A stretch of DNA of 64,000 nt, from positions 1 to 64,000 of the forward strand of contig CAIQIR010000032.1 of assembly GCA_903871875.1 (NCBI GenBank), written 5' to 3'. The notes under the pieces are model-generated. The model made no database searches and was not told the origin of the DNA. It saw nothing but the letters and a program-made list of their open reading frames with translations. The position numbers were made by a program, and so were the translations under genes. Origin of the DNA: an uncultured Schlesneria sp. GTDB lineage: Bacteria > Planctomycetota > Planctomycetia > Planctomycetales > Planctomycetaceae. This document shows positions 35,832-57,491 of this stretch, one piece after another (position 1 is the stretch's first letter; each line of letters starts with the position of its first letter).

Positions 35832-35884
35832 AAAAGCCGCAAGACCACCGGTTGGTGATTTTGCGGCTCGATGTTCTCGCAGCC
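35832..35884 (-). promoter_or_regulatory. Conserved hairpin leader, copy 1
   Basis: Minus-strand order: GGCTGCGAGAACATC box, stem GAGCCGCA/TGCGGCTT, inner stem CACC/GGTG around aacc, then TTTT, then 30 bases to the ATG at 35801. The inner pair differs from other copies (CUCC/GGGG) yet still pairs. Confidence 0.75.
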
Positions 35885-35949
35885 TGATTTATTGGATTGT
35901 CGGACGCGGGTATAGTTTGATGCGAGAATCCCAATTGTCAAGGCGAGTT

Positions 35950-37881
35950 CTATGCCGTCCAACTGGAATTGGTCAGAGTGGCATCGGCATCAGTCAACAA
36001 TGGGCCGTACGTCGTCCATTTCTCATTGCCGATTGCCAGTTGCTCTTCCGGCAGTGGAGCTCGCGAAAGCCCGATTCGACATTCGAGATACCCGCTGTAA
36101 AGATCTTCGCCGAGCGCGGTTCTCACGGGGGAATTCGGGAATAATTGCGAACTCAATAAATACTGACGAATTGGACTCGTTGGTGCGTACGATGGAGCCA
36201 CAAACCCCGGCACGTTTTCGCCGTCGGGAAATTCTGGCCACTTCCCGACGCGCTCGGCATGCACCCGAAGAATCCGGATGACCTGCGGCGCACTCAACTG
36301 GACAAACACCGAACCGTCACCCAAAAGCGTGTTGGGCGTCGTTGGCATTTGGCATCGCGTCGTCCGCTTTTTGTAAACGTTCGTGATTTTGTAGAACGTG
36401 TACGGTGCGATGTTTTGTGAAATCGAGTGCTCGGGCGGTGGAACGATAGTCGAAACAACATTAACCCTGACCGGGTAATCCACCCGCGGCTGGTTATCTA
36501 GTTGCGTGTAGTTCTGGTTCGGCCCATCGTTCGGCAGTGTTTGGCCTTGGTAGTAAAGCGAGTGTTGATCGTTGCACGGATCTTGGAGGTAACACGAGAA
36601 GATCCCCGCCAGCGTCGCCGGTCCCTGAAGTTCTGGCATCTGGCCAGCATATCCGCCCCACGACGTCGATTGGTTATAGGCCGGATCGGTCCCATCGGGA
36701 ACCGGCAAATCCGCCGCTGAAATCGGTTGCCCCAATTCCGTGAATTGCAGTACCGCCGCTTGCTTGGACGTCAAGTTTTGTCGTTGGATCGTCATCCTCG
36801 CGGAAATCGCATTGACGTCACCGATACGATCGACGAACGCCAGAGACTTCACGAGGAATTGCGACTCGAATGCGATCTTCGCGTTTATCGGTTTCGCTTG
36901 AAGCTCCACTGGAGTTACGCCAAACGCTTTCGCGTACAAGATCCACCACGCCAATGTGATCAACTTGGATTTGTCCACGAGGCTATCGCCGGTCAAATCC
37001 ACTTCGATCGAGGCTGAGCCAATCAAGCCTTGCTGAATCTCTTCGGTATGCACGACGTTCCAGGTTCTCGCGGGCCATGGTGCGGCCGAAGCAATCTCCT
37101 TGTGAATCACCATCCAATTCATCCGCAATCCGTCAGAACTGACGTCGAAGCTCATTCCTTCGATTCGCATCAATGGCTGAAGTGGCGGAATTGTCATCCA
37201 TCGGAACGAATTGATATTGATATTGTTTGAAGCGCACACGAGTTGCCCGGTATACGTGCGCGTGACCTGCAAATTCACGTCGAGACTGTCGACCGATGAC
37301 CAGCGATTTGAAAGCACCCCGTAATTATTCCCCGTCGTCGGGTTGTAATCGCAATCCAAATGGCACAGTTCGAACTCGGCCACGATTGGGAAAACTTCAT
37401 TCCCCGTCGGATGCGAGATTTTCAGTGACAAACACTTTGGCCCATTCGCAACATCGATTCCCTTGAGGCCTTGCAACGTCTGCCATGACGAAGAGCCTGG
37501 CTGACCCTTGGGAACCAACTGATTTTTCGGTGGAGGGGGATTGATATTGAAAATCAGCGTTCCATCGGGAACCTGACCTTCTCCGCTGCAACCAACCCAC
37601 ATCTTGAACGGTTGGCGAGGCTCTAGTTTTCGTCGGAACTCGTTTTCCGCGAGCGCCGCGTTTCCACCGTAATTGACGCCCGTCCCCACGTCTTGCGTCT
37701 TGTACGTCCAATCGCCTGGAACCGCATGCCCATGGATAAATCCAGATACGCGGATCTTTGACCGAACGTACAGTAAATCCGTATTCGTCTCGTCGAAGAC
37801 CTGTTCTTGAAACACGTCCTCTGTCGTCACCCGAAATAGAGTGATCGATCCATATTGGACAATGGTATGACCGGCTGACAT
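35950..37881 (-). CDS. Large tail protein, function unknown
   Basis: Encodes 643 residues, strand-rich throughout (LFRVTTEDVFQEQVFDE, SLDVNLQVTRTYTGQLVC). It lies directly after the putative tape-measure gene, where distal-tail, baseplate-hub or tail-tip proteins are encoded, and 12 bases separate the two genes. No enzymatic motif is visible. The gene is long for a distal tail protein, so a fused hub is possible. Confidence 0.55.
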   Translation of the reverse strand: MSAGHTIVQYGSITLFRVTTEDVFQEQVFDETNTDLLYVRSKIRVSGFIHGHAVPGDWTYKTQDVGTGVNYGGNAALAENEFRRKLEPRQPFKMWVGCSGEGQVPDGTLIFNINPPPPKNQLVPKGQPGSSSWQTLQGLKGIDVANGPKCLSLKISHPTGNEVFPIVAEFELCHLDCDYNPTTGNNYGVLSNRWSSVDSLDVNLQVTRTYTGQLVCASNNININSFRWMTIPPLQPLMRIEGMSFDVSSDGLRMNWMVIHKEIASAAPWPARTWNVVHTEEIQQGLIGSASIEVDLTGDSLVDKSKLITLAWWILYAKAFGVTPVELQAKPINAKIAFESQFLVKSLAFVDRIGDVNAISARMTIQRQNLTSKQAAVLQFTELGQPISAADLPVPDGTDPAYNQSTSWGGYAGQMPELQGPATLAGIFSCYLQDPCNDQHSLYYQGQTLPNDGPNQNYTQLDNQPRVDYPVRVNVVSTIVPPPEHSISQNIAPYTFYKITNVYKKRTTRCQMPTTPNTLLGDGSVFVQLSAPQVIRILRVHAERVGKWPEFPDGENVPGFVAPSYAPTSPIRQYLLSSQLFPNSPVRTALGEDLYSGYLECRIGLSRAPLPEEQLAIGNEKWTTYGPLLTDADATLTNSSWTA

Positions 37882-37893
37882 TGGAACTCGTCC

Positions 37894-39330: not shown

Positions 39331-39336
39331 GGTCTA

Positions 39337-39591
39337 TCATCCTCCTGCGTTTCGTTGTCGATGACTCAGTCGCCAATGTTCCAGTACACCATCTTGTGGG
39401 TTGTCGTGCGTGGCGATGCACATTTCTTCCGTGGGATCGTTTTTTACGGCGACTCCAAGCCCGATGATTCTGGCTGTCCGGAGTTGCTGTCGGTCGATGT
39501 TGAGCCAGAGTCCGATTCGCTGCTCGTGGCTGACTCTTCCGCTGGGATCGAATCCGTACTGGGCGACGAAATCGGCTTTCCACTGCCATTT
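39337..39591 (-). CDS. Minus-one frame extension of the tail assembly chaperone
   Basis: This 84-codon frame has no start codon of its own at its 5' end but is open from the A9 run at 39589-39597 to a TGA at 39339-39337. It reads WQWKADFVAQYGFDPSG and onward like a real protein, including LWLNIDRQQLRTARIIGLG. A -1 slip on AAA-AAA would fuse it to the first 124 residues of the chaperone, giving 208 residues. This mirrors lambda gpG-gpGT. It ends just before the tape measure gene. Confidence 0.75.
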   Translation of the reverse strand, partial: KWQWKADFVAQYGFDPSGRVSHEQRIGLWLNIDRQQLRTARIIGLGVAVKNDPTEEMCIATHDNPQDGVLEHWRLSHRQRNAGG

Positions 39592-41185: not shown

Positions 41186-42247
41186 TTAGCAAACGTTCGT
41201 CAACAAGAACCCGCTGACTGGCGCGGTCATGTTCACGTCGAAGTTGTCGGTCACCGCGATCTTCTCGATTCGGTTCCAGCTATCGCTGTCGGTCTCCAAC
41301 TTGAGATCGTCTTCGCGGTAGATGTGCAACGAACACGTCGAGAACGAACGGCCGCCTTCGACGCCTTCGAGCGAGCTTGGTCGATGGACAACCAACACGG
41401 TTCCCAGTGGCAAGACGAAGCTTGCGGACTGAGTGATCAAACCGCGCTGGGTCGTGACTCGAACCGTCTCTTCGATGACATATTCCGTGTCATAGAGGCG
41501 ATCGGGCAAACCGTAGTTTTCTTTCTTGAATTCCTGTTGGTTCATCAAGAATCGAGGCCCGGCGATGTTCTGCTTGACCAGTTCGACGATTTCTTGAGAA
41601 ACCGAGATCTGGGCGGCAGTATCCGGACCCATGACGATCAGCAAGTCTTTCGACTTCACGGCGCCGCGGGTATCGAGCAGAATCAACTGCTTGATGTAGT
41701 TCAGCGTTCGCTTGATGGCCAAGCGTGCTGATGTGGACGCGGCCCAGTTCCCGACGACGCCAGAAATCGGCGTTCCCGAGAGATCCGCCACGTGTGACGA
41801 TGGCCAGTTGCCGGAAGTCGTCAAGGTGTTGAGAACGGCGATCGTTCGAGCAGTCATCGCCAATTGAGCCAGAGCCCGGCTTCGGCGATCGCGTTCGTCC
41901 CACGCCGCTTGCTCGCTGGTCATCTTGCCGATTTTGTCGGGATAACTCTTTCGCTTGCAGCGGAAACCAAGTTCGCTGAAGTATTCGGCCCCGTCGTTAG
42001 CGTCTGGTCGGTCATGACCGTCGGCCCACGCGTATTTCGCCAGATCGGAATCAACGATGCGAGCACGCTGATCGAGGCCCATTTGATACCAGATACCGAC
42101 GGCTTGCTCGACCGGCACCGGCTGAGTGTATTTCAAAACCGCGAAGTCGTTGATATTACGACTGAAGTCAACGAACAGATTTCCCGAACTCTTGGCGTTC
42201 GGCACATACGTGTTATACGGGCCGGGAAGCGCGACGTTGTTGGCCAT
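41186..42247 (-). CDS. Major capsid protein
   Basis: Encodes 353 residues. The opening LPGPYNTYVPNAKSSG also appears in part in the scaffold gene (LPGPNNSYVPGAAS). The pattern of an N-terminal arm, a long helix (DERDRRSRALAQLAMTARTIAVLN), an A-domain-like LLIVMGPDTAAQI and a C-terminal strand region suits an HK97-fold capsid. Position after protease/scaffold and decoration genes is standard. AGAGG precedes the ATG, and a hairpin leader precedes that. Confidence 0.75.
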   Translation of the reverse strand: MANNVALPGPYNTYVPNAKSSGNLFVDFSRNINDFAVLKYTQPVPVEQAVGIWYQMGLDQRARIVDSDLAKYAWADGHDRPDANDGAEYFSELGFRCKRKSYPDKIGKMTSEQAAWDERDRRSRALAQLAMTARTIAVLNTLTTSGNWPSSHVADLSGTPISGVVGNWAASTSARLAIKRTLNYIKQLILLDTRGAVKSKDLLIVMGPDTAAQISVSQEIVELVKQNIAGPRFLMNQQEFKKENYGLPDRLYDTEYVIEETVRVTTQRGLITQSASFVLPLGTVLVVHRPSSLEGVEGGRSFSTCSLHIYREDDLKLETDSDSWNRIEKIAVTDNFDVNMTAPVSGFLLTNVC

Positions 42248-42264: not shown

Positions 42265-42318
42265 AAAAAAAGGCCGCAAACCCCGTTTTGGAGCTTGCGG
42301 CCTGATGTTCTCACAGCC
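42265..42318 (-). promoter_or_regulatory. Conserved hairpin leader, copy 2 (capsid gene)
   Basis: GGCTGTGAGAACATC box, outer stem AGGCCGCAA/TTGCGGCCT, inner stem CTCC/GGGG around aaaac, U7, then 17 bases containing AGAGG to the ATG at 42247. The most regular copy. As drawn it is a strong intrinsic terminator in front of the most highly needed virion gene. Confidence 0.8.
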
Positions 42319-42372: not shown

Positions 42373-42789
42373 TTAGACCTTGTATCCCACGAACACATCA
42401 ATCGGGCACAGAGCCCCGACCACTCCGGCCGTTTGGGCGCGACCGACGTAGTAATTGCCGCTGGTGGCCACGATGCCAAAACCAGAAGCGTCGGCCATGA
42501 TCAAATCGCCAGCCGCCCAGGTGGCATTGCAATAGAGATCGACCCCGGTCGCACCGTTGGTGTAAACGCCGAGATATTCACCAGCGATTGCCGCGACTTG
42601 CTGAGCCTGAGTCGTTTGGCTGAAGTCGGGATCTGGTCGAGTTCGCGCGGCGTTGGTCGCGACACCCGTTGGTACAACCGTTCCGTCAGCGGCTTTTTTG
42701 ACCGAGTTATTGTGCGTCGAGTCAGGGATGACGATGACGGAACACGGAACCGTCGCGTTCGCGTACATGCTTTGAAGTTGATTCGCCAT
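42373..42789 (-). CDS. Putative capsid decoration protein (DUF2190-like)
   Basis: Encodes 138 residues, strand-rich with VDLYCNATWAAGDLIMADASGFGIVATSGNYYVGRAQ, a sequence style of DUF2190 and phage decoration proteins that cap capsomers. Sits between scaffold and major capsid genes. The identification is by context and pattern. Confidence 0.6.
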   Translation of the reverse strand: MANQLQSMYANATVPCSVIVIPDSTHNNSVKKAADGTVVPTGVATNAARTRPDPDFSQTTQAQQVAAIAGEYLGVYTNGATGVDLYCNATWAAGDLIMADASGFGIVATSGNYYVGRAQTAGVVGALCPIDVFVGYKV

Positions 42790-42810: not shown

Positions 42811-42862
42811 AAAAAAGCTACCGACCCTGTTTAAGAGTTGGTGGCTTGATGTTCTCACAGCC
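42811..42862 (-). promoter_or_regulatory. Conserved hairpin leader, copy 3
   Basis: GGCTGTGAGAACATC box, stem AAGCCACC/GGTAGCTT (the last pairs have changed together relative to other copies), inner stem CTCT/AGGG around taaac, U6, then 21 bases to the ATG at 42789. Confidence 0.75.
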
Positions 42863-42904: not shown

Positions 42905-44812
42905 TTAGATTGGAACGCCGTTCGTCTTACAGATAGCCGCGAATTCCTCATTGAAATCCGGTTTTTCACCTTTGCTGATCTTTCTCAAGCAAACGTCTTC
43001 CGCTTGGCGTTGGTACTTCTTGATCTGATCGGCGGACACGCGAGGCGAGGCGCCACCACGGCTGTATCGCTCGACTTCGACCGTCTGGTCATCAAACAAC
43101 TCGACGTTTTCCAGCGAATCACGTCGGGCGTACTTCGTGATCCCCTTCGTGGCAAATCGCTCGAACTGGTCTTCGCTCATGTCGGCGACCAGTTCCATCT
43201 CTTCGCGAGGATCAAAGGCATACTCACGAGACAGATCGACCAGCCGCGAATACTTCATCGCGTCGGATCGTTCTTGCGCGATCGCGTCGGATTGATCCTG
43301 CATTTGCTTTTCGAGGGCCTTGATTCGTTCGGCCTGGCTCGCGACAACGTTGGCCAAGCCATCATCAGCCGCACTTCCTTTGGAATAATTCGTCGTCATG
43401 GATTGGCGTCCTTTCTGAAGACCGGCGGCGTAAGCCATGCCGCATTCGGGGCTCATTGCCGCGTATTTCTTTTGATCCTCATCCGCAGCTTGCGGCGCAC
43501 TGGGGGCGGGCGAGGATTGTTTATTGGGTGCAGGAACGCCAGCGGGATTCGCACCCGGAACAGATGGCGTTGCCGGTTGATTCAGGGCGGCAGGTGGTTG
43601 TTGAGCAACTTGGCCGTTTGCTTGCGCTTGGCTTCCATTGTCAACGTCACCGCCGTCAAGTGAATCCGATGGATCAACCCCACGAGGCACATTGTCATCG
43701 TCGGGAGGAGCGTTCGGATCCATATCGTTATCCGACGGGACAGCATCGCCGTCAGTCGGGTTGTTTGCACTCAGTTTGTCTTGCACCGATTGGACAATCG
43801 ACGGCATCAACTGAGAGACAATTTCGGCCACCATCGCTGCCATTTGATCGGTGTCGCTATCGTTCGAAGGTTGGGCCTGTGTGGCGTCCATCGAATTGAA
43901 TGGCGGATTGTTTTTTTGAGCGACAGGCGGAATCATGGAATTTGCTCCGTATTTTTTCTTTTGATCAGATGCGGCGCCCGGCACATAAGAATTGTTCGGA
44001 CCCGGCAAAGCCATCGCCATTGAATACCGCATAACTTCCTGACCATCCGCAGCGCGAAGGCAGTAAAGATTCATGCCGGAATCGAGGCGAGGTGTTTCGC
44101 TTCCCAATGCGGCGATGGGATCCATCGTGCGTCGTTCGATCGGCTCTTTGTGCCAAACTTCGGGCGAACGTCGCTGGAGTTTTTGAAATCGCGCGACGTC
44201 GTCGTTATGGACCCATTCGTCGGAAAAGATGGCCCATTGTGGGTCGACGTTGCCGAAGAGCCCGAGATAGAACGGGCCGGAATAACCCAACACGTCGGCA
44301 TCAGGTTGACCAGACGACTTTTCTTCTGGCGTTGGCATATGGCCATCGGAAATCGCGGCGAATTGGCCAGCGTTCCGAATTCGGTAGTTCGCGAAATCCA
44401 CCATTTTTTGGAGGGCGACGCGGTCGTAATTCGTGCCTTCGACAGCCTTGCGGACAACTGCTCCGGACGTTGGATGCTTCAATTCGGGTGCATCGGGAAT
44501 GACGTGTTCAAGGAAGATGCACCGAGGGCCGAAATGCGTGAATCGATCGGCTGGAAACCGAGTTGCGGCGGCTTCCCGTAGATCCTGATCGTTCTGGCTT
44601 TGCTGCCAGAGTTTCAGAATCTCGATGGTTCGTTGATTGACTTGTGGGACCGATGGCTTGAGAGCGCGGAACGCTCGATCGAAGAATTGACCTTGAGTCT
44701 CGCCCAACATTGGAGCAAGAGACGCCATTGAAGCGAGTGCGTCCACCGGCTGAACAACCTTTTTTGAAGTTGTCGAATTTGCTTTCTTCGGTGGTGTTGC
44801 GGTTGCAACCAT
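42905..44812 (-). CDS. Prohead protease/scaffold-like protein
   Basis: Encodes 635 residues. An N-terminal folded region (RCIFLEHVIPDAPELKHP, GQFAAISDGHMPTPEEK, DVLGYSGPFYLGLFGN) is followed by a long Pro/Gln/Asn/Asp-rich disordered part, a coiled coil (VVASQAERIKALEKQMQD) and a C-terminal helix. This matches fused protease-scaffold proteins of Mu-like heads; the catalytic residues are not identified. The segment LPGPNNSYVPGA resembles the capsid N-terminus and could be a shared processing or binding signal. Confidence 0.6.
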   Translation of the reverse strand: MVATATPPKKANSTTSKKVVQPVDALASMASLAPMLGETQGQFFDRAFRALKPSVPQVNQRTIEILKLWQQSQNDQDLREAAATRFPADRFTHFGPRCIFLEHVIPDAPELKHPTSGAVVRKAVEGTNYDRVALQKMVDFANYRIRNAGQFAAISDGHMPTPEEKSSGQPDADVLGYSGPFYLGLFGNVDPQWAIFSDEWVHNDDVARFQKLQRRSPEVWHKEPIERRTMDPIAALGSETPRLDSGMNLYCLRAADGQEVMRYSMAMALPGPNNSYVPGAASDQKKKYGANSMIPPVAQKNNPPFNSMDATQAQPSNDSDTDQMAAMVAEIVSQLMPSIVQSVQDKLSANNPTDGDAVPSDNDMDPNAPPDDDNVPRGVDPSDSLDGGDVDNGSQAQANGQVAQQPPAALNQPATPSVPGANPAGVPAPNKQSSPAPSAPQAADEDQKKYAAMSPECGMAYAAGLQKGRQSMTTNYSKGSAADDGLANVVASQAERIKALEKQMQDQSDAIAQERSDAMKYSRLVDLSREYAFDPREEMELVADMSEDQFERFATKGITKYARRDSLENVELFDDQTVEVERYSRGGASPRVSADQIKKYQRQAEDVCLRKISKGEKPDFNEEFAAICKTNGVPI

Positions 44813-44835: not shown

Positions 44836-44887
44836 GAAAAAAGCCGCAGCCCTGATGAAAGGATTGCGGCTTGAAGGTCTCACAGCC
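44836..44887 (-). promoter_or_regulatory. Conserved hairpin leader, copy 4
   Basis: GGCTGTGAGACCTTC box, stem AAGCCGCA/TGCGGCTT, inner CCT/AGG around ttcatc, U6, then 23 bases to the ATG at 44812. In this copy GGCT of the box can pair perfectly with AGCC of the stem's 5' strand. Confidence 0.75.
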
Positions 44888-45356: not shown

Positions 45357-46208
45357 TCAGTGATACCACAGTGTTTGAGTAGCGGACCAAATGAACGACA
45401 TTCTACCCAAGGCGGGGATGACGCAAGACACGCCGTCGGCGACTCGGGAAGTTCCCGCGGCGGCCATCGTGATGGAATTCGCTGCCGTGTTGACCAAAAT
45501 CACCTCGTCACCATCGGTTCGGCCAACGGGCATGATCACACCGGTAATTGCCCCGGCATTCGTGAGGAGCTTGGCTCGGCCAGTTGTTGGGAGAACCACG
45601 GTTCCAGCATTGGCCAGCGTCTGCGCCGCAGTAATTGGCGTCGAAACTGGCCCGGCAAAAGAGATGGTTCCAATCGCCCCAGCAGTTCCACCAGCGGAAG
45701 TTCCACCAGCCCCAGGCGTGAGCACAACGTTTCCGCCGGCGCCACCATTGCCAGTGCCGGCCGTCGCGTTTCCACCGGCGCCCCCGGCCAATGCCGAATT
45801 CCCACCAGCCCCGCCAGCATCCGTTCCAGAAGACGCAGTATTTCCACCAGCGCCACCAGTCTGAGAAGCCGTACCACCAACGCCACCGGCCGCCGCGCCA
45901 GTTGTCGCTTTGGATCCACCAGCCCCGGCAACGTCAACAAGTGAACCACCATTACCGCCCGCAGTGGTCCCGGTACCAGGAGCGCCAGCCGCACCAACGG
46001 AACCGCTCGAAACACCGTTGCCTGTCGTCGCATCAGGAACGTCCGTGATGTTTTGCATCTTCGTTCCGTTGGCCACTTCCATTCGACCCGTCGTCGTATT
46101 GAAGTAGGTTTCCCCAACCCTCATGTTTACTGGCCGATTCGTTGTGGTCCCGGCGATATCATGGCCGTTGACACTCGTGATTGTCGGATCGCTCGTTCCA
46201 AATGCCAT
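45357..46208 (-). CDS. Glycine-rich head fibre-like protein
   Basis: Encodes 283 residues. After an 85-residue N-terminal domain (TITSVNGHDIAGTTTNRPVN), residues about 85-185 are GGAGG/GGxGG repeats (GGAGGNTASSG, GGAGGNSALAGG), the composition of polyglycine-II bundles known from phage adhesins and head fibres. A compact strand domain ends the protein. Encoded among head genes, so a capsid fibre is more likely than a tail adhesin. Confidence 0.6.
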   Translation of the reverse strand: MAFGTSDPTITSVNGHDIAGTTTNRPVNMRVGETYFNTTTGRMEVANGTKMQNITDVPDATTGNGVSSGSVGAAGAPGTGTTAGGNGGSLVDVAGAGGSKATTGAAAGGVGGTASQTGGAGGNTASSGTDAGGAGGNSALAGGAGGNATAGTGNGGAGGNVVLTPGAGGTSAGGTAGAIGTISFAGPVSTPITAAQTLANAGTVVLPTTGRAKLLTNAGAITGVIMPVGRTDGDEVILVNTAANSITMAAAGTSRVADGVSCVIPALGRMSFIWSATQTLWYH

Positions 46209-46227: not shown

Positions 46228-46276
46228 GAAAAAGGCCGCATGCTCGTATTGAACAGCGGCCCGATGGTCTCGCGGC
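46228..46276 (-). promoter_or_regulatory. Conserved hairpin leader, copy 5
   Basis: GCCGCGAGACCATC box, stem GGGCCGC/GCGGCCT with a mostly unpaired inner region, U5, then 19 bases to the ATG at 46208. The most divergent full copy. Upstream is a separate stem GGCGAC/GTCGCC at about 46293-46314 with an A-run on the coding strand. Confidence 0.65.
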
Positions 46277-46366: not shown

Positions 46367-49300
46367 TCAAGATCGGTTTCCATGAAATGCCAGCGAGTAT
46401 TTCATAGCGGCTTTGTCGGCACGGTCTCGGCTTTCCAAATCCTCTTTCTCGCCAGCGTCCGCGGACATATGGGCCATTCCTGGAATCGCCTCGTGCGAAC
46501 TGTCGCTGTCGCCCGCAGTCTCTTCCGGTTTGCTCGCGTCAGCCGATTTCTCGTGCCCCAGCTTTTTCAAAACGTATTCGACTGCACTTTTGCCAGAACC
46601 ATTCAAATGTCGCTGCCATGCGGATTCAGTCGGTGACCAACGGAAACCGGATGACTTCAGCGTTTCGATGGCAGATCTCTCTGGCTTCCCTGGAAAGTGA
46701 ATCCGGATTCTAGCGGCATCGGGATCTTCAGACACGCGAACGCCACCGCTGTATTCCGCTTCGGATTTCGATCCTGATTTCATTTTGGAAACCTGATCGA
46801 TCCGATCTTTGACGTTGCGGATATTTGCACTCAGATTCGACAGCGAATAAGGTGGATATGGGCTCGGTTCCCACGAGTATTGAGGTTTGTAGTTCCGAAT
46901 CGTTTCCTTCGCGGCATCCGGCAAATCACTTTTGTCCAACGATGATGGCGACTTTACGAAGGCACGATGCGCCGCGTTAATCCGCTTCCGCATGTCCTGC
47001 TCATGCTCAAGCTTTTTCAGTTTTGAATGCAGGGCTTCGACGGCATTGTCATCGGATGACTTGATCGGACCGCCCTGACCGGCTGGTGCCACTTTCTTGA
47101 TGATCGACCGCAGGGCTTTCTCGCGGAATTCCTTGAGTTCGTCGTACCTCTTCATCTCCGTATCGATTTTCTTACGGTTCGAATCGGTCGGGAATCTCGC
47201 TGGCCCGGTAATCATCGGACTCGCCGTTCTGGACGCCGCATGCAATGCCGACAGGTATTTCGAGACGTATCCTTGGCGATATCGCTCAAACTCGGCGCGA
47301 GCCTCATCGTCGGCCCCGTCCTTCATCTTGGACGCAATGAAGTTCCAATCGCCATTCATCTGCTGAACGTAGTCCTCTTGTCGCTGGCGTGCCCGACGTT
47401 CCGGAACGAATGACGTGTTTCGATGGGCGTTGTAACCGGCTTCGTAGGGGATATCGTCGCTTTTGACGTTGGGTGCGGATGCTGGAGACGCCGACGATTT
47501 GGGTTTATCGTTTTCTTTTAGCTCATCCCCCGCCAGCAAATCCTTCTGCCCAGCAATCGGCTTGCTCGCTTCCTCCCGCTCTTTTTGATCGTCACCGATC
47601 TTTTCCAACGTGCTTCCGCCAGCCGATTCGGGTTTTGACTTCGTGTCGGATTTCTTGGGCGGAACGTAGTCGAAGAGTTGCTTCTGGCCTGGCCCGTCGT
47701 CGTCGAGTAGGGATTGTTGCATTCCGGGAATGCCGGGTTTTTTGGCTTCCTTCGCGGTGGCCTCTGGTTGTTCATCCTCTTTCGATTTCGGCTTCATATC
47801 GGCGAACTCACCCAGATTTTCCGCCGTGAGCTTCGATGGATGAGCACGCTCAATCGCCTTTTGAGCATCCTTTTTCAACGCGGCTAGTCCCTGCGATAGC
47901 TTGTCTTCAAGATGCCCGACCGTTGGCGTAGGGTGTTTCTCGCCAGAGCCATGCCCACCACTCAGCGCGTAAGCGTACGTCGTCCCGGTCTGGTGCGGTC
48001 TCGGCCCGCGCATATCGTTATAAACACCGAGCTTTTCAACGAGTTCATGAACCTTTTTGCGGTACTCGTTCAGATGATTTACGGCCGCCTCACGATGAAT
48101 TTTGGACGGTCGCTTGCCTCTGCGTTCCTCGTCGCCTTTGTCGGGTTTGTCCGAACTTTGTCCGTTTGTCGTGTCCGTTTTCGGACTTTCGGCTTCCAGC
48201 TTTTTATTTCCAGATCGCTCTTCAGGGCTCTTCCCGAAGTCGCTTAGCTTGTGAATCCCCTTCTTGGCCATCCCAGCAGGCCCGGCTTCGATCCTCCCGT
48301 CGTCGCCTATCTTGACGTGAACGTAGTCGTCGGAATCATCGCCGTGTGGTTTTAGAGTGATCCAACGGCCCTGATCTCCGTGTTCTTTTGCGTACTTGAA
48401 CGCGGCGACATCCGCCCTCGAATCCCAGTTGTCCCAATCATCATCATGGGCGTATTCAGGCTCCTTGCTCTTCGCTGGCTTCTTACCCTTGGCCCATTCC
48501 TTGGCCAGCGAGTGGACTTCCGGAGAATTCTTCGTCGGTTTTGAAATCGCCCCTTCGCGGATCAATTCCCAAATCCTGGCGGGCGTATCGTGAGCGTCAG
48601 GATCGATTCCCAATTCGCCGTGTTCCATGGCCACCGTTCGCGATGACGTATCGAAGCCTTCCACCGTCGAGTGATCTCGATAGGCGTTTTCATGGCGCGC
48701 GATATCTCCTGCCGTCAAACCAGTGATTCGTCTCGCGGATTGTTTCGCCTTTTCCCGGACTTCATGCTGCTGCAAAAGGAACTCGTGAGCACGCGGAATC
48801 AGCGTCGAAGCCCGCTTGTGTTCGGCTGACAGTTCGCTGATGTGCTTGCCGTGAAGCTCCGATGGGCCTGTGATGATCTCGCCGCTTGCGGACAACTGGA
48901 CGTGAACGCCTTTGCCTTCATCGCCATGGGGCTTCAACATAATCCACGTTCCACCGCTGTCGGATGATTTGGAATATTTGGCGGCCGCGAGGTCAAACCG
49001 ACGGACATGGTTATCACCATCACCTCCACTGACCGGCTTCTTGGTATCCCCGCTCTTCAGCCAATCCTTGAAATCGCGCGAGTGCATGGCCTTGATGCCG
49101 TTGAATCCCTTCCAGTCATCCGGGTAGTTCTCGTGGTACGCGGATTTTGCGTCTTCCTTGGATTTGAAGCCGATCAGACATTTATGCTCGTCGAAATGCC
49201 CACTGCCCGGATTAACCTGATCAACCACGTAGACAATCGGATGCTCGGGATGCGGCCCAATAAACACGTCAATATGATCACCATCCGCGAGGCTTATCGT

Positions 49301-50140
49301 TCGCTTGATGTAGCCGTAATGGGACTTCATCTCACGTTCCCATGACTTGCCGTCGCGACTAACTCCGCGGCGAATTCCGCCTTTTGGAGTCTCGATCGAG
49401 ATATCCATGCCGTGAATACGAACGTGGCCTTTTCGGTAATTTCCTGCCTCAGCGTGTTCGGCGGATTTTGGCTCTGATGCTTGCTGCGCTTCCCGGTTCA
49501 GTTCATCGGCGGACATGGTTTTACCGGGATGCCATGATGTGCCGGCGGAGTAGCGATGAGCGTTCTCAGCTAATTCCGCCCGTTTCGAGAAGTTCGCAAT
49601 GCCTGCCCGAACGCGAGATTCAAAGCTCTGAATGTCACTGGCCGTCGTTTTCGTCAACCCGAGAGCTTTACGGAACGTTTCCTGAGTGTCGGAAATCAAT
49701 TGCTGAGTTTCTTCAGGCGTCATTGTCGCTTTTGAAAAAGCGATCTTTCGTCGAGCTTCTTGGAACGGTGACGCGACATCGTCGTTTTTTGTGGGTGTTG
49801 ATACGGTTGATGGTTCGACTGGAGTTTCCACCTTCTTGTTCGTCGCCAACGCTGGCTGTTGGGCCTGCTTCGGAAACCAGATCAATTTACCATCCGGGCC
49901 TTTAACGGTCTTTCCGCTGCCCTTAATGGACTCGATGACATCTTCGGGCGGCTTTTGTTTGGCCGCTTTCCCCTTGAACCATGCGGGCGCTGCTGGAGTT
50001 TCCGCAGCACTTCCGCCCGCCGTCCATTTCCCATCGTCGGCCCTCGCTTCCGATGAAACGTCGCGGCTGTATCGATCTGGGTTGAACGCACGCCGCTCCA
50101 AAACCCGTTGGATTCGCTGCTCGACTGTCAGTTCTGACAT
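46367..50140 (-). CDS. Polyvalent virion protein with an inorganic-pyrophosphatase-like domain
   Basis: Encodes 1257 residues. Residues about 233-362 carry KGGIRRGVSRDGKSWEREMK, YGYIKRTISLADGDHIDVFIGP and FDEHKCLIGFKSKEDAKSAY, the pattern of the InPase-like domain of phage and plasmid polyvalent proteins. Two repeats follow at about 389-445 and 583-640, each W-h-LKPHGD...HV...G-I-x-x-GP. Long charged linkers come next, and near 1160-1215 RIRIHFPGKPERS...GFRWSPTESAWQRHL is another polyvalent-type domain. Such proteins are thought to be injected with the DNA to counter host defences. It lies between portal and head fibre genes. Confidence 0.7.
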   Translation of the reverse strand: MSELTVEQRIQRVLERRAFNPDRYSRDVSSEARADDGKWTAGGSAAETPAAPAWFKGKAAKQKPPEDVIESIKGSGKTVKGPDGKLIWFPKQAQQPALATNKKVETPVEPSTVSTPTKNDDVASPFQEARRKIAFSKATMTPEETQQLISDTQETFRKALGLTKTTASDIQSFESRVRAGIANFSKRAELAENAHRYSAGTSWHPGKTMSADELNREAQQASEPKSAEHAEAGNYRKGHVRIHGMDISIETPKGGIRRGVSRDGKSWEREMKSHYGYIKRTISLADGDHIDVFIGPHPEHPIVYVVDQVNPGSGHFDEHKCLIGFKSKEDAKSAYHENYPDDWKGFNGIKAMHSRDFKDWLKSGDTKKPVSGGDGDNHVRRFDLAAAKYSKSSDSGGTWIMLKPHGDEGKGVHVQLSASGEIITGPSELHGKHISELSAEHKRASTLIPRAHEFLLQQHEVREKAKQSARRITGLTAGDIARHENAYRDHSTVEGFDTSSRTVAMEHGELGIDPDAHDTPARIWELIREGAISKPTKNSPEVHSLAKEWAKGKKPAKSKEPEYAHDDDWDNWDSRADVAAFKYAKEHGDQGRWITLKPHGDDSDDYVHVKIGDDGRIEAGPAGMAKKGIHKLSDFGKSPEERSGNKKLEAESPKTDTTNGQSSDKPDKGDEERRGKRPSKIHREAAVNHLNEYRKKVHELVEKLGVYNDMRGPRPHQTGTTYAYALSGGHGSGEKHPTPTVGHLEDKLSQGLAALKKDAQKAIERAHPSKLTAENLGEFADMKPKSKEDEQPEATAKEAKKPGIPGMQQSLLDDDGPGQKQLFDYVPPKKSDTKSKPESAGGSTLEKIGDDQKEREEASKPIAGQKDLLAGDELKENDKPKSSASPASAPNVKSDDIPYEAGYNAHRNTSFVPERRARQRQEDYVQQMNGDWNFIASKMKDGADDEARAEFERYRQGYVSKYLSALHAASRTASPMITGPARFPTDSNRKKIDTEMKRYDELKEFREKALRSIIKKVAPAGQGGPIKSSDDNAVEALHSKLKKLEHEQDMRKRINAAHRAFVKSPSSLDKSDLPDAAKETIRNYKPQYSWEPSPYPPYSLSNLSANIRNVKDRIDQVSKMKSGSKSEAEYSGGVRVSEDPDAARIRIHFPGKPERSAIETLKSSGFRWSPTESAWQRHLNGSGKSAVEYVLKKLGHEKSADASKPEETAGDSDSSHEAIPGMAHMSADAGEKEDLESRDRADKAAMKYSLAFHGNRS

Positions 50141-50152
50141 GGCTCGGCACCC

Positions 50153-51850
50153 TTAAATTGAGTTTGTGCGACGCTGAAGTTTTCGAAATGGGATCGCCGA
50201 CCGCTTGAACGACTGGCGTGAATACCGCTGAGTGTGGCCATCGGCATCAGGTTTCGGCGGTTGATCTGGATCGCGTGGCGCCGATTCGTCATCCGGATTC
50301 AATGACGACTGCGATGGATCGGTCTCGCCCGGTTGTGGCTGGCCTGGCATCCCCGGAATCCCCGGCGCCCCCATTCCTCCGCCCTGCGATGGTTGATCCG
50401 GATTGACTTCGTCTCCGGGCCCTGGCATCGCCATGCCGACCAACTCGTACAAATCCTTCGACCGGAACTTGATTCCACGGTCCATCAGTTGCGTGCAGGC
50501 TTCCAGCTTTTCCTTGACGTCGTCTTCTTCGGTTTCCGCGACGAATCTGGGAACAAACCCTGGATCTTCCCAAACGCCCTTTTGGACGTTGATCTTGATA
50601 ATCGATTCGACCAGCTCGCTCGTAATCGTTTCTTCGTGGTCCGTCGCATCGCTTTTGATGATTTGAAGCAACGTATCCTGATGGAATTCTGATTGACCAG
50701 ACCCGAGACCGCCCGACTCAGTTTCCGACGATCCGATCTGCCCTAAGATGTACCGCTTGATCCGGTGGTTGAAATACTCGTGAAGCATATTTTGCAGGGT
50801 CTCGACGCCCTGAAAACCCGGCTCGATGACGTCCACGCCATACTGGCTTCCGTTCTCGCCGATTGGCACGGGAACGAGCAAAATATGCTCTTGGCCCGAG
50901 TTGTAATTCTCCGCCGACGCCTTAGCTTCCGCCAATGCCTGCTGGTTCCCCATCGGGTACTTCCAGATCTGGACGCCGCCGGCCATTCGCTCGACGAATT
51001 CCATCAGGAACGCCATCGTCTCCTGCTTTTGAACCCACTCCCAATAGATGACGGACCGGATCCCAACGCCGTGAATTGCCCCCGCCTTGATCCCATCCTC
51101 ATACGGTGCATCCTCGACGTGATGCTTGTGAACCAAGATCAACCGTCGTTCGGCCGGCGACAGGAAATAGCCCAAACCGTAATCCGTTGGCTCAACTCGC
51201 CATCGCCCATTGATGACATCGCCAAGTCGGTACGTCGTGCCTACTCGAATCCCGAGTTGGCCTTCATAGCTCCCCGGCACCATGTCCGGCCGCTGCTGAC
51301 GGAAGATCAGCTTATCCCCGTGGAGCGGTCTCCAGCCCCAATCGTCTTGATGACGACCGGACGGCATAAAGACCGACTTTCCGCCGACGATCTCAGACCG
51401 CCAGCGATGTTGAATCCCCATCTTCCCGAGCCAAATCGCATTCTGGACGCAATATCGGTACTCGGTGAAATGCTTGATCCGTCGCAATACCTTTTCCATC
51501 ATCACGCAGAATGATCGCTGCGATTCAGACTTTTCCTCTTCTGGCTCGAGATGCCAGTTCAGCAAAGCGACCGACCGTTTTCGGGAGTCGATGCACTCAC
51601 GAAGCCCGACGTCGTTCCACATATACCGGGCGTTGTCGCGGTTATCCAAAAGAGCTTCGTCATAGTCCCGGTAAACTCGCGCGAGTGACGTATAACGATT
51701 GATGAACGTGTCAGAATGGCCAACCGGATACTTCCCAAGATTTGGTGCAACCCATTGTTTCGCACCGGTCGCTGGATCTCGCGTGAGCAGTTCGGCACCC
51801 GCCATCATTTTCTGATAGGGGTTTCCGTTGTTGTTGAGTCCGATGGACAT
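50153..51850 (-). CDS. Portal protein, Mu gp29-like (DUF935)
   Basis: Encodes 565 residues from the ATG at 51850. Typical features are CIDSRKRSVALLNWHLEPE, GKMGIQHRWRSEI, DDWGWRPLHGDKLIF, LILVHKHH, and the C-terminal LGQIGSSETESGGLGSGQSEFHQDTLLQIIKSDA, the DUF935 signature region. A Pro/Gly/Gln-rich tail follows. The portal forms the vertex through which DNA is packaged and is docked by the terminase encoded upstream. Confidence 0.8.
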   Translation of the reverse strand: MSIGLNNNGNPYQKMMAGAELLTRDPATGAKQWVAPNLGKYPVGHSDTFINRYTSLARVYRDYDEALLDNRDNARYMWNDVGLRECIDSRKRSVALLNWHLEPEEEKSESQRSFCVMMEKVLRRIKHFTEYRYCVQNAIWLGKMGIQHRWRSEIVGGKSVFMPSGRHQDDWGWRPLHGDKLIFRQQRPDMVPGSYEGQLGIRVGTTYRLGDVINGRWRVEPTDYGLGYFLSPAERRLILVHKHHVEDAPYEDGIKAGAIHGVGIRSVIYWEWVQKQETMAFLMEFVERMAGGVQIWKYPMGNQQALAEAKASAENYNSGQEHILLVPVPIGENGSQYGVDVIEPGFQGVETLQNMLHEYFNHRIKRYILGQIGSSETESGGLGSGQSEFHQDTLLQIIKSDATDHEETITSELVESIIKINVQKGVWEDPGFVPRFVAETEEDDVKEKLEACTQLMDRGIKFRSKDLYELVGMAMPGPGDEVNPDQPSQGGGMGAPGIPGMPGQPQPGETDPSQSSLNPDDESAPRDPDQPPKPDADGHTQRYSRQSFKRSAIPFRKLQRRTNSI

Positions 51851-51867
51851 ATTCGCGAGCCTCAAAA

Positions 51868-51921
51868 GAAAAAGGCCGCACGCCTCATTGAAGAGACGTA
51901 CGGCCTGAAGTTCTCACAGCC
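51868..51921 (-). promoter_or_regulatory. Conserved hairpin leader, copy 6 (portal gene)
   Basis: GGCTGTGAGAACTTC box, outer stem AGGCCGTACG/CGTGCGGCCT, inner stem TCTC/GAGG continuing it around ttcaat, U5, then 17 bases to the ATG at 51850. This copy makes the longest uninterrupted hairpin, with changes on both strands keeping pairing. Confidence 0.8.
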
Positions 51922-53830: not shown

Positions 53831-54246
53831 GTTGGCTGGCCTTCCGTTTCAGTGGGCGGTTTGTCGCTAGGTTCCGTTGGAGGATCCGCGGGTGGTTCAG
53901 GTGGGTCGGTTTTGGTGGTTGACTCCGTTGACTCTGTTGGCTCGTTTTCTTTTGGCTTTTCGATTTCGACTTCAACGTCAGCCTTGATCATTTCTTCAGC
54001 CGGCTTCGGATCATCAACCGCCGTGATTCGATCCAACAGCCAATTCACATCATCCGCCGCGATGAAGAACCGCATCCCGTGGTCAGCCCGCTGCCGGTCA
54101 TACTTTGCCGCGTAACCGGGATTCGGAACTTCCTCTAGCAACGTCGCAACGTCCGAAGCCACTTCCGAGAACGGAATATCAAACCGAGTCAGCCCCGGTG
54201 CATACTTCATCCTCAGTGCCCGAGCCTGTGATTTCGTGATTGGCAT
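53827..54246 (-). CDS. Hypothetical acidic Pro-rich protein
   Basis: Encodes 139 residues from the ATG at 54246 (GGAAG upstream). Residues 1-75 are folded (LRMKYAPGLTRFDIPFSEVASDVATLLEEV, RFFIAADDVNWLLDRI); the rest is an acidic Pro/Thr/Glu tail. It follows the large terminase gene and may be a packaging or connector accessory. No known domain. Confidence 0.5.
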   Translation of the reverse strand: MPITKSQARALRMKYAPGLTRFDIPFSEVASDVATLLEEVPNPGYAAKYDRQRADHGMRFFIAADDVNWLLDRITAVDDPKPAEEMIKADVEVEIEKPKENEPTESTESTTKTDPPEPPADPPTEPSDKPPTETEGQPT

Positions 54247-54266
54247 TTCCTGACTTCCTTTTTCCA

Positions 54267-55802
54267 TTACCGCCGAACTGTTCGCTGTCGGTTGATTTTC
54301 TTGCTTTCGATCTGCACGCCGTGCCGATTACCGGAATGCTCGTGAGCCATCGTGCTGACCGTCGTTCCCGTCTGATTCGCTTCCGAAAACACGAGATACC
54401 GCATCGCATCGACCGCATCGTCTTTGCTTTTTACGGGTGCATCTTTCGGCGCGGCGGCATTCGGTCCCGTCGAAACTTGCCGTTGCCGACGATAGCTCAC
54501 CATTTCGCGCATCAGGTTTGGACACCGCTTTCGATCGATCTTCAATCGTGGCTGCATCGGCTCGCCGGGAATCATGTTAATCGTCGGTTTGAGCAGCATT
54601 TTCACGTACTCGATCCCCTCGTCCACGTTCTTGTGAGCGAGTTGCACGTTCATTGAGTCGTAGCCTTCGGCGTACTCGGACATGCGACTCGCAATTCGAA
54701 CGCAGTCCAAGTTATGGTCGACCCAGGTTGTGCCGTAATAGGGGTTGTTTTGCGGCCACGGATGCCGATCCTGAATCTCCATATAGTGATCAACGACAGT
54801 TTTAGAGGTGTCCGTTGAATAATACTCGTCATAGATGATCCATCGACCTGAACCGTCGCGGCAGCCCCACAGGCAAACAAATGCGTGGTCGGCTGAGAAC
54901 CCGTAATCGATCGCTCGCGAGTGATAGCACGCTGGCGGGATGTCGTAATCCAACGGAGTGCAGTGGAGTTGCGAATTGAATTCCGGGTAAATCGCCCCCT
55001 CAAATCCGCCCCACAGACCGGATTCTCTCACGGGCTTCATCTGGTCCGGAACCATGCCGAAGAATGTGTTGTACCACTGCTTTGTGACGTGCCCGGCTTC
55101 CATCGCGCACCGAGTATTGGCGCGATAGATCGCCCAATCTTCGGGAAGAGACGAATTCTCTTCCATCTCCCGCAACTCCATCGACAACTCGGGATCGACC
55201 GGCGTGAACTCCGCGAGTTTGTTTCCGGTGAATGCGTATTCCCGGCAACCTCGTAAGGTTTCTTCCAAGATGCCCCACGGGAATTGCTCGACGAACAGAA
55301 ACCCGCCGATAGACTCGGCCTGCATCGCCGCTCTACCCTGTTCATAACTTTTGAACGAGATCGACCAGTTCTTGCCAGGCCTGCCCCTCCACGGTTTCAA
55401 ATGAACTGTGAACGGCCAATCGTTGTTCGGCTTGTACCATTGGATCCGCTGCCAATCGACGTCGTTGGGATGCAAGTGGCCTTGCTGGTGAAGCTTTTCC
55501 TTCCAACACGCGCCCATAACCTGCTGATACGATCCGGCGATGATCCAAAACGGCGTATCCTTCCGCGGTGGTGGCTGATCGCACGTCATGAACTTGACGG
55601 CTTTGGCGAGGCCGAGCGTGGTTGTCCCGGCCCCGTTTCCGCCTAAGAGGAAACTAACTCCCGCATGCTGCGAATTATAAAACGCAGTCTGCTGGTCATG
55701 TCTTGTCGGCTGATCCGGTCGCGGCTGAAACGAATAACACGCCAGTTCGGCCATTCGCCGCTGGAGCTTCGCAATCGACATTTCTGGCGAGAGACTAACC
55801 AT
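54267..55802 (-). CDS. terL: Terminase large subunit with a non-canonical Walker A
   Basis: Encodes 511 residues. The ATPase P-loop reads LLGGNGAGTTTLG (54-62), matching the terminase GGxxxGKTT except that Thr60 replaces Lys. The usual Walker B DE reads FLFVEQFP. The RNase H-like nuclease half looks intact: RAIDYGFSADHAFVCLW, TWVDHN and KSKDDAVDAMRYLV carry the expected Asp residues. It should cut and translocate phage DNA; ATPase activity must rely on an altered site or this copy is impaired. It overlaps the small subunit gene by eight bases. Confidence 0.85.
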   Translation of the reverse strand: MVSLSPEMSIAKLQRRMAELACYSFQPRPDQPTRHDQQTAFYNSQHAGVSFLLGGNGAGTTTLGLAKAVKFMTCDQPPPRKDTPFWIIAGSYQQVMGACWKEKLHQQGHLHPNDVDWQRIQWYKPNNDWPFTVHLKPWRGRPGKNWSISFKSYEQGRAAMQAESIGGFLFVEQFPWGILEETLRGCREYAFTGNKLAEFTPVDPELSMELREMEENSSLPEDWAIYRANTRCAMEAGHVTKQWYNTFFGMVPDQMKPVRESGLWGGFEGAIYPEFNSQLHCTPLDYDIPPACYHSRAIDYGFSADHAFVCLWGCRDGSGRWIIYDEYYSTDTSKTVVDHYMEIQDRHPWPQNNPYYGTTWVDHNLDCVRIASRMSEYAEGYDSMNVQLAHKNVDEGIEYVKMLLKPTINMIPGEPMQPRLKIDRKRCPNLMREMVSYRRQRQVSTGPNAAAPKDAPVKSKDDAVDAMRYLVFSEANQTGTTVSTMAHEHSGNRHGVQIESKKINRQRTVRR

Positions 55803-56334
55803 TGGAGAGTGCTGACCCCTCCAATTCGGCTTGATGCTTTGCGGCAGCCAAGAGAGCCCCGGCCGCTTCTTTTAGGGCATTCGCCCGCGAGCCACTTCCG
55901 CCCATTTGAGGTAGACCGGGAATCTCTTCGGAGTGCGTGAGTTCGATTTCCGATTTCGCGGGAGCATCAGCTCCCCAGATCTTCCGAATCTCAGCGAGGG
56001 CGGCACGAGTCTCGGTTGAGTATTTGGGGTCGTCCGTCAGTTTGAACTTCGACAGCGATTTCGATGCGATGAATTCGAGCGTATGCGTATGCCGCGTCCG
56101 GTATTCCATCTGAACGTCGATGCACTGAAGTTTCATGTATTCGTGAACCAGCTTCACAGCGCGAAACACCGCCACATGATTCGTGTCGACTTCAGCCGCA
56201 ATCTCCCGATAAGTCTTCAAATCGATCGACCATTTGTTGTACCAGTCTACGTGCTGCGCGGAAGGCTCCCACGGCTTACCGGGCTTCCGCACCGGCTTAC
56301 TTGGAGATCCTTTCTTGCGTTTGGCACCGGCCAT
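55795..56334 (-). CDS. terS: Terminase small subunit
   Basis: Encodes 179 residues from the ATG at 56334. Very basic N-terminus (AGAKRKKGSPSKPVRKPGK), an HTH-like helix set (LKTYREIAAEVDTNHVAVFRAVKLV), a helical oligomerisation region and an acidic C-terminus. This is the layout of small terminases, which recognise the packaging site and recruit the large subunit. Identification is mainly by position and architecture. Confidence 0.65.
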   Translation of the reverse strand: MAGAKRKKGSPSKPVRKPGKPWEPSAQHVDWYNKWSIDLKTYREIAAEVDTNHVAVFRAVKLVHEYMKLQCIDVQMEYRTRHTHTLEFIASKSLSKFKLTDDPKYSTETRAALAEIRKIWGADAPAKSEIELTHSEEIPGLPQMGGSGSRANALKEAAGALLAAAKHQAELEGSALSNG

Positions 56335-56387
56335 TTTGTTCGCTCTGGTTTGCAAGTTTTGTTACGGACTTGTGTTACGAAATTCAA

Positions 56388-57398
56388 TCAGACCGTTGCC
56401 GCCGCCTTCTTAAGCGAGTTCTTATGACCGCGAATGATGTTAGAAACCTGGACCGTCTTGACGTCGAGACCATCCGTTTTTAGGTCTGCCGCGATCTCGG
56501 CCGCACCCTTCGTTGGATCACCTTCGTAAGCCGCAATCACCATTTGACGAGTGAAGTCGTCGGGGTCGGATTGAGAGGAATCACGTGACTCGTCGGTGTG
56601 AGAGTTGTTGATCGGTGTTGCAGGTGGAAGCGGTTTGATCTCCGCGTATCCAGGCCCATCGATAGCTTGCAGGTCGAATTCCTCGGCAACCACCAAAACC
56701 TCTTCGCGAGTCACTCCCTTGCCGCGTTCGATTTGCTGGATGTAGCAACCATCTCGCAACATCTGTTCGATTGTCGCTGGGTCTTGATTTCGCTTCTGCC
56801 CGACTTCGAGAATCTTGTATGCCTCAAGACGGGCTTCAAGTTCCTTCTTTCGTGCGGCCGCAGCTTGGAATCGAGATGGATGAACCCAATCCGCTGGAAT
56901 TACGCTGTTGGGCGTCGCAGCTTCCTTTTCGATCAGTGCAACATTGCAAATCCCGTTTCCAGTGACAAACGGACCTTGACCTCGCCAGCCGTAAATGTGG
57001 AATGCGATTTGATCATGGGTGACCCCGTTTTTAATTAGGAACGCCACCGGCTCAATCGTCTCCACAAATGTTTGGTCTGAATCAATCCGAGCTTTCGCAA
57101 CCGCTCTCGCTGCAGCCCAAAACGATGGCGTTGGTGAACCATTCGGCTGACATGACCCATCAACTCCGGACTGGTACGTCTGCAATTCGACAGCGAGTTT
57201 CGGCATCACCAACGTACACAAATCGCGACACTGTTCAGGGATATCGCCTTCCGCACAAATCACCGCCGCGGACTCGATCGCGAGCATTACGTCATCAGAA
57301 AGCTTCATCGAATCGCCAGGTCTAAGTCCTGCCATCCAATTTTCAATGCGTCGGACAGCCTCGCTGGTCGCCATCAGGATGTCTTGCGTGCGTGTCAT
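56388..57398 (-). CDS. Hypothetical protein upstream of terminase, HTH-like C-terminus
   Basis: Encodes 336 residues from the ATG at 57398 (GAAGG upstream). N-terminal helical domain, a central region with GVTHDQIAFHIYGWRGQGPF and QMLRDGCYIQQIERGKGVTREEVL resembling a second small helical module, then TKGAAEIAADLKTDGLDVKTVQVSNIIRGHK, which reads like a winged or turned helix. Probably DNA binding, perhaps in packaging initiation or late control. It is led by hairpin leader copy 7. Confidence 0.5.
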   Translation of the reverse strand: MTRTQDILMATSEAVRRIENWMAGLRPGDSMKLSDDVMLAIESAAVICAEGDIPEQCRDLCTLVMPKLAVELQTYQSGVDGSCQPNGSPTPSFWAAARAVAKARIDSDQTFVETIEPVAFLIKNGVTHDQIAFHIYGWRGQGPFVTGNGICNVALIEKEAATPNSVIPADWVHPSRFQAAAARKKELEARLEAYKILEVGQKRNQDPATIEQMLRDGCYIQQIERGKGVTREEVLVVAEEFDLQAIDGPGYAEIKPLPPATPINNSHTDESRDSSQSDPDDFTRQMVIAAYEGDPTKGAAEIAADLKTDGLDVKTVQVSNIIRGHKNSLKKAAATV

Positions 57399-57428
57399 TT
57401 GTGCGTTGCCTTCTTTGAAAAATGAAAA

Positions 57429-57491
57429 CGAAAAAAGCCGCAACTAGTCCCCATTTTCGGAGATTCGTTGCGGCTTGGTTGTCCCACGGCC
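57429..57491 (-). promoter_or_regulatory. Conserved hairpin leader, copy 7
   Basis: GGCCGTGGGACAACC box, outer stem AAGCCGCAAC/GTTGCGGCTT, inner CTCC/GGGG around gaaaat, U6, then 30 bases to the ATG at 57398. The loop holds TGGGGA. First copy met by a polymerase reading the packaging and head genes. Confidence 0.75.

Follow-up and report, generated by a model that had tools for sequence, protein, structure and literature searches.

The stretch of DNA analysed here, called the window below, comprises 64,000 nucleotides (nt) from an uncultured Schlesneria sp. (CAIQIR010000032.1, positions 1 to 64,000). It is part of contig C32 (65,384 bases) in a 7.6-Mb genome, encodes an integrase, and carries a phage region in which seven copies of a structured RNA leader stand before late genes. 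The genes behind copies 1 to 7 are all on the minus strand: a 187-amino-acid (aa) gene (35238-35801), the major capsid gene (41186-42247, with a weak PHROG major head match, E 2.9e-4), a 138-aa gene (42373-42789, PHROG head scaffolding match, E 9e-10), a 635-aa gene (42905-44812), a 283-aa gene (45357-46208), the portal open reading frame (ORF; 50153-51865, PHROG portal, E 3e-23, likely ATG at 51850) and a 351-aa ORF upstream of the terminase (56388-57443, likely ATG at 57398). The PHROG search gave no match for four of the seven. Among 50,697 public phage records the capsid had no tblastn match, and the terminase had 21 distant ones.

The preliminary description of this DNA had reported seven such copies, and all of them are present on the minus strand, each immediately in front of a late gene and each including a box, a hairpin of terminator type and a U-run. 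The order is box, short spacer, terminator-type hairpin, U-run, ribosome-binding region and start codon, the last lying 22-36 bases past the hairpin, and each copy sits between co-directional genes, 43-245 nt after the stop of the upstream gene. The outer stem, given as RGCCGC..GCGGCY, is exact in five copies; the copy at 51868 has RGCCGT in its 5' arm, and that at 42811 has the weaker, mismatched AAGCCAC..GGTAGCTT (-11.3 kcal/mol). The inner-stem changes quoted in that description can be read directly in the sequence. A covariance model run over the whole host genome is significant only at these seven places (E at most 1.3e-11; next 0.15). The sequence GGCTGTGAGAAC has five matches in the window at 0-1 mismatch, every one an element copy; at up to three mismatches there are 55 against 51.4 expected, that is, no enrichment as such, and a simple terminator scan of the late region showed no overall enrichment (22 vs 24.5; 19 vs 18.1).

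A single nested hairpin behind a linear box, as first proposed, does not describe the element; the functional unit appears to be a pair of mutually exclusive hairpins, one of antiterminator type and one an intrinsic terminator. The upstream hairpin is formed by the box, the spacer and the first 4-6 bases of the terminator 5' arm, and consists of an outer stem, a 5' bulge, an inner stem of 3-4 base pairs and a five-base loop, as in 5'-GGCU-G-UGA-(GAACA)-UCA-AGCC-3'. Because its last 4-6 bases are also the start of the terminator 5' arm, the two hairpins cannot coexist. The predicted hairpins are:

35865..35884, minus strand: copy 1 antiterminator-type hairpin, GGCU-G-CGA-(GAACA)-UCG-AGCC, -7.7 kcal/mol
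35834..35869, minus strand: copy 1 intrinsic-terminator hairpin followed by a U-run, before the 187-aa gene, -22.9 kcal/mol, 5 nt common with the first hairpin
42299..42318, minus strand: copy 2 antiterminator-type hairpin, GGCU-G-UGA-(GAACA)-UCA-GGCC, -5.6 kcal/mol
42271..42303, minus strand: copy 2 terminator hairpin, before the major capsid gene, -26.2 kcal/mol
42843..42862, minus strand: copy 3 antiterminator-type hairpin, -5.9 kcal/mol, retained when the whole leader folds freely
42815..42847, minus strand: copy 3 weak terminator hairpin, before the 138-aa scaffolding gene, -11.3 kcal/mol
44868..44887, minus strand: copy 4 antiterminator-type hairpin, loop GACCU, -5.2 kcal/mol
44841..44872, minus strand: copy 4 terminator hairpin, before the 635-aa gene, -16.8 kcal/mol
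46259..46276, minus strand: copy 5 antiterminator-type hairpin, GCC-G-CGA-(GACCA)-UCG-GGC, -6.5 kcal/mol
46233..46262, minus strand: copy 5 terminator hairpin, before the 283-aa gene, -19.1 kcal/mol
51902..51921, minus strand: copy 6 antiterminator-type hairpin, loop GAACU, -4.9 kcal/mol
51873..51906, minus strand: copy 6 terminator hairpin, before the portal gene, -27.3 kcal/mol
57471..57492, minus strand: copy 7 antiterminator-type hairpin, CGGC-CG-UGG-(GACAA)-CCA-A-GCCG, -8.3 kcal/mol
57435..57476, minus strand: copy 7 terminator hairpin, before the 351-aa gene, -23.9 kcal/mol

Taken alone, the terminator is the more stable of the two in all seven copies (-11.3 to -27.3 vs -4.9 to -8.3 kcal/mol for the upstream hairpin), and without the shared bases it retains -6.8 to -15.0 kcal/mol.

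Both folds are conserved through compensatory changes, as expected of the selected RNA structure that had been suggested. In the seven-row alignment of the outer terminator helix, 98.0% of the cells are paired and four are changed on both sides, a result reached by 2 of 500 shuffles. For the upstream hairpin of the window copies, 95.9% of the cells are paired (pairing reached by 14 of 500 shuffles) and three pairs are changed on both sides; its inner stem, UGA/UCA, is replaced by CGA/UCG in two copies and by UGG/CCA in one more. When the count was extended to 22 distinct upstream hairpins, with hairpin-identical copies entered once and the tetraloop types of G099, G100 and G005, the 7-base-loop copy at C82 234487, L133, the doubtful L129/L130 matches (loop CCGUU) and the later-found L225 omitted, 151 of 154 cells were paired, compared with a mean of 94.6 and a maximum of 121 over 5000 shuffles of the 3' sides. 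Restricting it to one hairpin per lineage left 88 of 91 cells paired (shuffled mean 56.3, max 76). By the stem partition used, one bulge or internal loop is present in 28 of 28 hairpins. Their loops fall into 15 types, of which AACAA is the commonest (8/28) and GACAA occurs once.

Two simpler roles for the box were considered and set aside. A purely linear sequence signal was ruled out, as the box bases covary with the terminator arm, and pairing of the box with the terminator 3' arm was given up, the compensatory changes being located in the upstream hairpin.

The leader also stands before orthologs of the same late genes in other phages. Of 99 genomes from the same genus, family and class, 9 had a capsid match, the source genome among them; viral-contig relatives included L005 (contig G099) and L056 (contig G100), and the relatives drawn from the alignment query were the best 80 of 224. 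The L124 capsid shares 39% identity with that of the window, and leaders in L124 precede the portal, 283-aa and 138-aa orthologs, that is, three of the window positions. Elsewhere the element is found before the capsid gene in L123, the portal gene in L212, C82 and C30, the 138-aa, 283-aa and 187-aa orthologs in L127, and the 635-aa orthologs in L131, L132, L156, L165, L212 and L225. Contigs G099 and G100 carry a variant with a GNRA-type tetraloop (GU-GAGA-AC, CGU-GAAA-ACG), which precedes the capsid gene in both and the portal gene in G100. The 635-aa gene is the most frequent element-bearing gene in the relatives, and is led by the element or its variant in six of the six phages first compared (window, G100, G099, C82, C30 and G010). 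Exact-pattern scans of the viral contigs found the window type at no locus and the L124 type in its source contig alone.

Placement before virion and packaging genes, as described earlier, thus holds in the window and in divergent phages; in two related Schlesneria genomes (G011, G012) the leader also precedes a small basic protein and genes of 600-750 aa. There it reads GUGGC-A-CUGU-(AACCA)-ACAG-GCCGC, or in another copy GUGG-A-CCGU-(AACCA)-ACGG-CCAC, and the terminator arm changes in step; some of these copies have long flanks in common. The G012 contig C82 has leaders at 108404 (portal), about 115.8 kilobases (kb; small basic protein), 160430, 183375 (635-aa ortholog), 228130, 234487 and 236052, so that the portal gene, the 635-aa gene and others across 128 kb of one contig have the same leader. 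Distant genes with one common leader are what would be expected from a trans-acting switch. The ORFs behind the leaders at 228130 and 234487 are only 76 and 88 aa long. Among six strong C82 terminators listed, the four with a box have an ORF start codon within 40 nt; the two without a box have neither an overlapping hairpin nor a nearby start codon. The genes of 600-750 aa, which lie about 80-210 nt behind the leader and have variable C-termini, look like variable-effector genes. Those in L059, L061, L062 and L018+L019 share an N-terminus (MSRVEWAIARYNWYRACGLL) and differ in their C-termini.

We have also searched for the architecture itself, with a descriptor (outer stem at least 3, 5' bulge 1-3, inner stem 3-4, loop exactly 5, 3' bulge 0-1, overlap of at least 3 with a U-run terminator) that was composed after inspection of part of the data. 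In 1,982,527 bases of the window and its relatives it gave 42 matches, 24 of them scoring at least 30 and 35 at least 24, the 35 not being independent (L130 and L157 duplicate L129 and L156) and including doubtful ones (C30 50568, L129/L130). Forty dinucleotide shuffles gave a mean of 3.65 matches overall, 0.35 (max 3) at 24 or more and none at 30 or more. The descriptor missed window copies 42811 and 46228, some G011/G012 copies and the tetraloop variants. As a fresh test, nine portal-derived regions (L210 and L211 are alike) gave two matches of at least 24, both in L212 (100 shuffles: mean 0.04, max 1), and the fresh stretch L225, from the 635-aa search, has a match scoring 27.5 before its 635-aa ortholog. 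At 77 capsid loci, 16 matches, the doubtful L129 among them, lie on the capsid strand and none on the opposite one, compared with 48 vs 58 terminator-like sites from a second detector (Fisher p 6e-7, a rough value given the partial redundancy of the loci and the mixing of two detectors).

At the level of sequence, then, the two predicted folds, their overlap, the conserved pairing with compensatory changes and the position before late-gene starts in divergent phages are shown. The window copies do not behave as mobile repeats: the seven are distinct, each stands before a gene, and structure is kept while sequence changes; long common flanks are seen among some G011/G012 copies. We interpret each copy as an attenuator leader of the terminator/antiterminator kind, off by default and opened by a factor binding the boxB-like hairpin, and put the probability of this reading at roughly 0.72. 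The nascent RNA would fold in one of two ways, as the upstream hairpin (about 20-26 nt, asymmetric bulge, five-base loop) or as the intrinsic terminator. By default, in lysogeny and early infection, RNA polymerase would stop before the gene, since the terminator is by far the stabler fold in six of the seven copies. A factor produced late, most probably a phage protein that binds RNA, would then read bulge and loop as N proteins read boxB; we infer a protein of this kind because the loop and bulge resemble a protein site (P22 and phi21 boxB). Once bound, it would hold the upstream hairpin, shorten the terminator, part it from the U-run and let transcription enter the gene, and one factor could unlock the capsid, portal and other head genes together.

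Several results weigh against this reading, as do the limits of the descriptor search given above. The terminator at 42811 is weak, and the minimum-energy fold of that whole leader retains the upstream hairpin without help. Several single copies are not distinctive: shuffles of 42265, 51868 and a third window copy do as well in 93, 55 and 27 of 300 cases, matching chance, those of the other four in 8-18, and those of the G100/G005 type in up to 90; for the G011/G012 type the figure is 1-7. Most relatives are without the element, with descriptor matches in 11 of 79 loci, in only one of the nine portal-derived regions, and before the 635-aa gene in 7 of 23 loci. In those 23, L226, L231-L238, L140, L145 and L148 have no match before the 635-aa gene, L222 and L228 have a terminator without a descriptor match, and L219 and L220 (G100, G099) carry the tetraloop variant, which the descriptor does not see. 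No terminator lies within 130 nt upstream of four of four examined orthologs of the 351-aa gene, of TerL in three contigs, or of the portal gene of G099. The promoter signal is weak, with a mean sigma-70-like score of 6.54 of 12 vs 6.14 (standard deviation 0.25) and sites of at least 9 in 5 of 39 leaders vs 1.15. Finally, the CAT_RBD, ANTAR and NusG-family searches, the Pfam scans of 39 window proteins and the conserved small ORFs yielded no trans factor.

A promoter directly upstream has little in its favour, sigma-70-like sites being slightly enriched only, with no strongly conserved block at the -35 distance. A GACAAT-like box lies about 9-23 nt before the hairpin (for example, window 35885-35901); GACAA occurs in 12 of 38 leaders vs 2.3 expected, a borderline result, as the commonest 5-mer also reached 12 in at least one of 200 shuffle sets, and one that we retain as a lead.

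Other explanations have to be compared with the factor-opened attenuator. The hairpin could be a boxB on which an N-like protein and Nus factors assemble for nut-type processive antitermination, the adjacent terminator being the first of many to be ignored. The five-base, boxB-type loops, with AACAA the commonest, fit this, and the loop of window copy 7, GACAA, is that of P22 boxB as given in the excerpted text of PMC12550061. We nevertheless regard it as unlikely: the stem is bulged, the hairpin overlaps the terminator arm and repeats before many genes, which a processive system would not need, and boxA-like sequence is not enriched upstream of 29 leaders (mean 5.03 of 8 vs 4.96; at least 7 in 1/29 vs 0.6, scored against the boxA consensus).

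No switch would be involved if the copies were RNA-end elements or partial terminators of constitutive activity, with a role in tuning stoichiometry or stabilising processed mRNA ends. Their location between co-directional genes, at the distances given above, suits such a role, which leaves unexplained both the second, exclusive hairpin of similar geometry with its compensatory changes and the placement hard against the next start codon; we therefore consider it improbable. Least probable is a protein-free, riboswitch-like switch in which cotranscriptional folding speed or a ligand decides between the hairpins. The upstream hairpin is indeed transcribed first, and the most stable fold of copy 42811 includes it; against this, the hairpin is small, its five-base loop changes in sequence, and no further conserved ligand pocket was noticed, no systematic search having been made.

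Known systems provide close parallels to the attenuator reading. In RAT leaders (BglG/SacY/LicT), according to excerpts of PMC9981650 and PMC3369936, the end of the antiterminator hairpin overlaps the foot of a rho-independent terminator, making the two mutually exclusive, and such leaders can precede more than one gene (nagY, hylA). The phage leader shares the overlap with the terminator 5' arm; unlike RAT as described in those excerpts, it has one bulge where RAT has two asymmetric internal loops, a five-base loop, and head genes in place of sugar genes, and a CAT_RBD protein was not found in six of six genomes or records (control positive in 4 of 14; the two viral records are perhaps fragments). 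ANTAR leaders (NasR, EutV) have, in the excerpted PMC3369936, terminators before several cluster genes, every terminator being overlapped by the distal stem of a hairpin upstream of it, an arrangement the phage leader resembles. The ANTAR site as given there comprises two hairpins whose loops carry A1 and G4, whereas the phage leader has one hairpin, with loops such as AACAA or GAACA (no dedicated search for a separate P1 hairpin was made). G at loop position 4 is found in none of the 15 loop types of the 28 hairpins, and no ANTAR protein was detected in six of six genomes or records, with a control that was silent in all 14 genomes.

The lambdoid boxB/nut sites are phage hairpins with penta-type loops that include GACAA, the loop of one of the 28 leader hairpins; the other 27 have different five-base loops. 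According to PMC12550061, the pentaloop bound by P22 N is GACAA, with its C looped out in the N-peptide complex, and phi21 boxB uses CUAACC; the G011/G012 loop lies in UAACCA. Unlike a nut site, the leader has a bulged stem, is fused to a terminator and repeats at several genes, and boxA was not found. For an N-like arginine-rich protein, the sole candidate is the small basic protein, of putative role. HK022 put RNA and LoaP leader hairpins are nascent RNA elements that suppress termination, acting on the polymerase over a distance. The phage leader would be similar in suppressing termination from the nascent RNA; it differs in being built into one terminator, and a NusG-family gene was not found on either of the two viral contigs or on C32. 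Judged by these comparisons, the leader would work like the BglG/LicT or ANTAR leaders but probably belongs to neither, and it is best read as a variant of the known terminator/antiterminator design and not as a demonstrated RAT, ANTAR or nut site.

Consistent with the earlier view that no described element has this form, Rfam gave no match to its 4227 families in the window at the gathering threshold, and none up to E 1 in 35700-57600. Against L127 it gave three weak sub-threshold matches, two of them over the leader at 6693 (E 0.2, 0.46). Among the papers listed on phage attenuators, antitermination leaders, structured phage RNAs and planctomycete phages, the titles and abstract openings describe no such leader.

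In the usual picture, a small number of late promoters or a single processive antiterminator turns on the late genes of a phage. In these environmental phages, several head-gene transcription units appear each to have their own terminator lock of one design. Such locks would offer a concrete, testable way of reaching the late regulator in phages of Planctomycetota, would exemplify a trans-acting RNA regulon within a phage, and might supply a new RNA-protein pair usable as a transcription switch. More tentatively, and with slightly less than even odds in our estimation, the leaders may form a phage regulatory RNA class of their own, new in uniting the two known antitermination designs: a boxB-type site would be set in the terminator 5' arm, one late factor would open the head, portal and accessory locks, and autoregulation might operate by way of the small basic protein, a protein whose gene has the element in front of it in three genomes or contigs. 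We speculate that the trans factor could be the following protein, whose structure model is of low confidence (mean pLDDT 62.9):

31331..31639, minus strand: 102-aa protein, N-terminus basic; the element leads its orthologs in G012, G011 and L124; window gene not led

The corresponding small-protein family (window 31331-31639, minus strand; L100 15894-16289; L113 18872-19267, minus strand; L124 19628-19798) has a conserved SGRWLxAVWRVE..RTAxNFP core and a basic N-terminus in most members, G099 being the exception.

Another repeated terminator, with a GAGAAC box upstream and arms GAACGCC..GGCGTT or similar, occurs on both strands in G099 (48550, 56036, 67501, 114599) and in L057 of G005 (6262, 9762, 13069); in G099 it is mostly an inverted repeat, GGTTCTC..GAGAAC. 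L057 (G005:C88) also contains a 20-kb region with dense terminator-like hairpins on both strands, several without an ORF of at least 60 aa behind them. In the virion region of the window, 46367-50140 (minus strand) encodes a 1257-aa protein with a Pfam InPase domain (PF18823, residues 229-362), matched in PHROG by phage proteins of very large size (DarB-like, endolysin, minor head).

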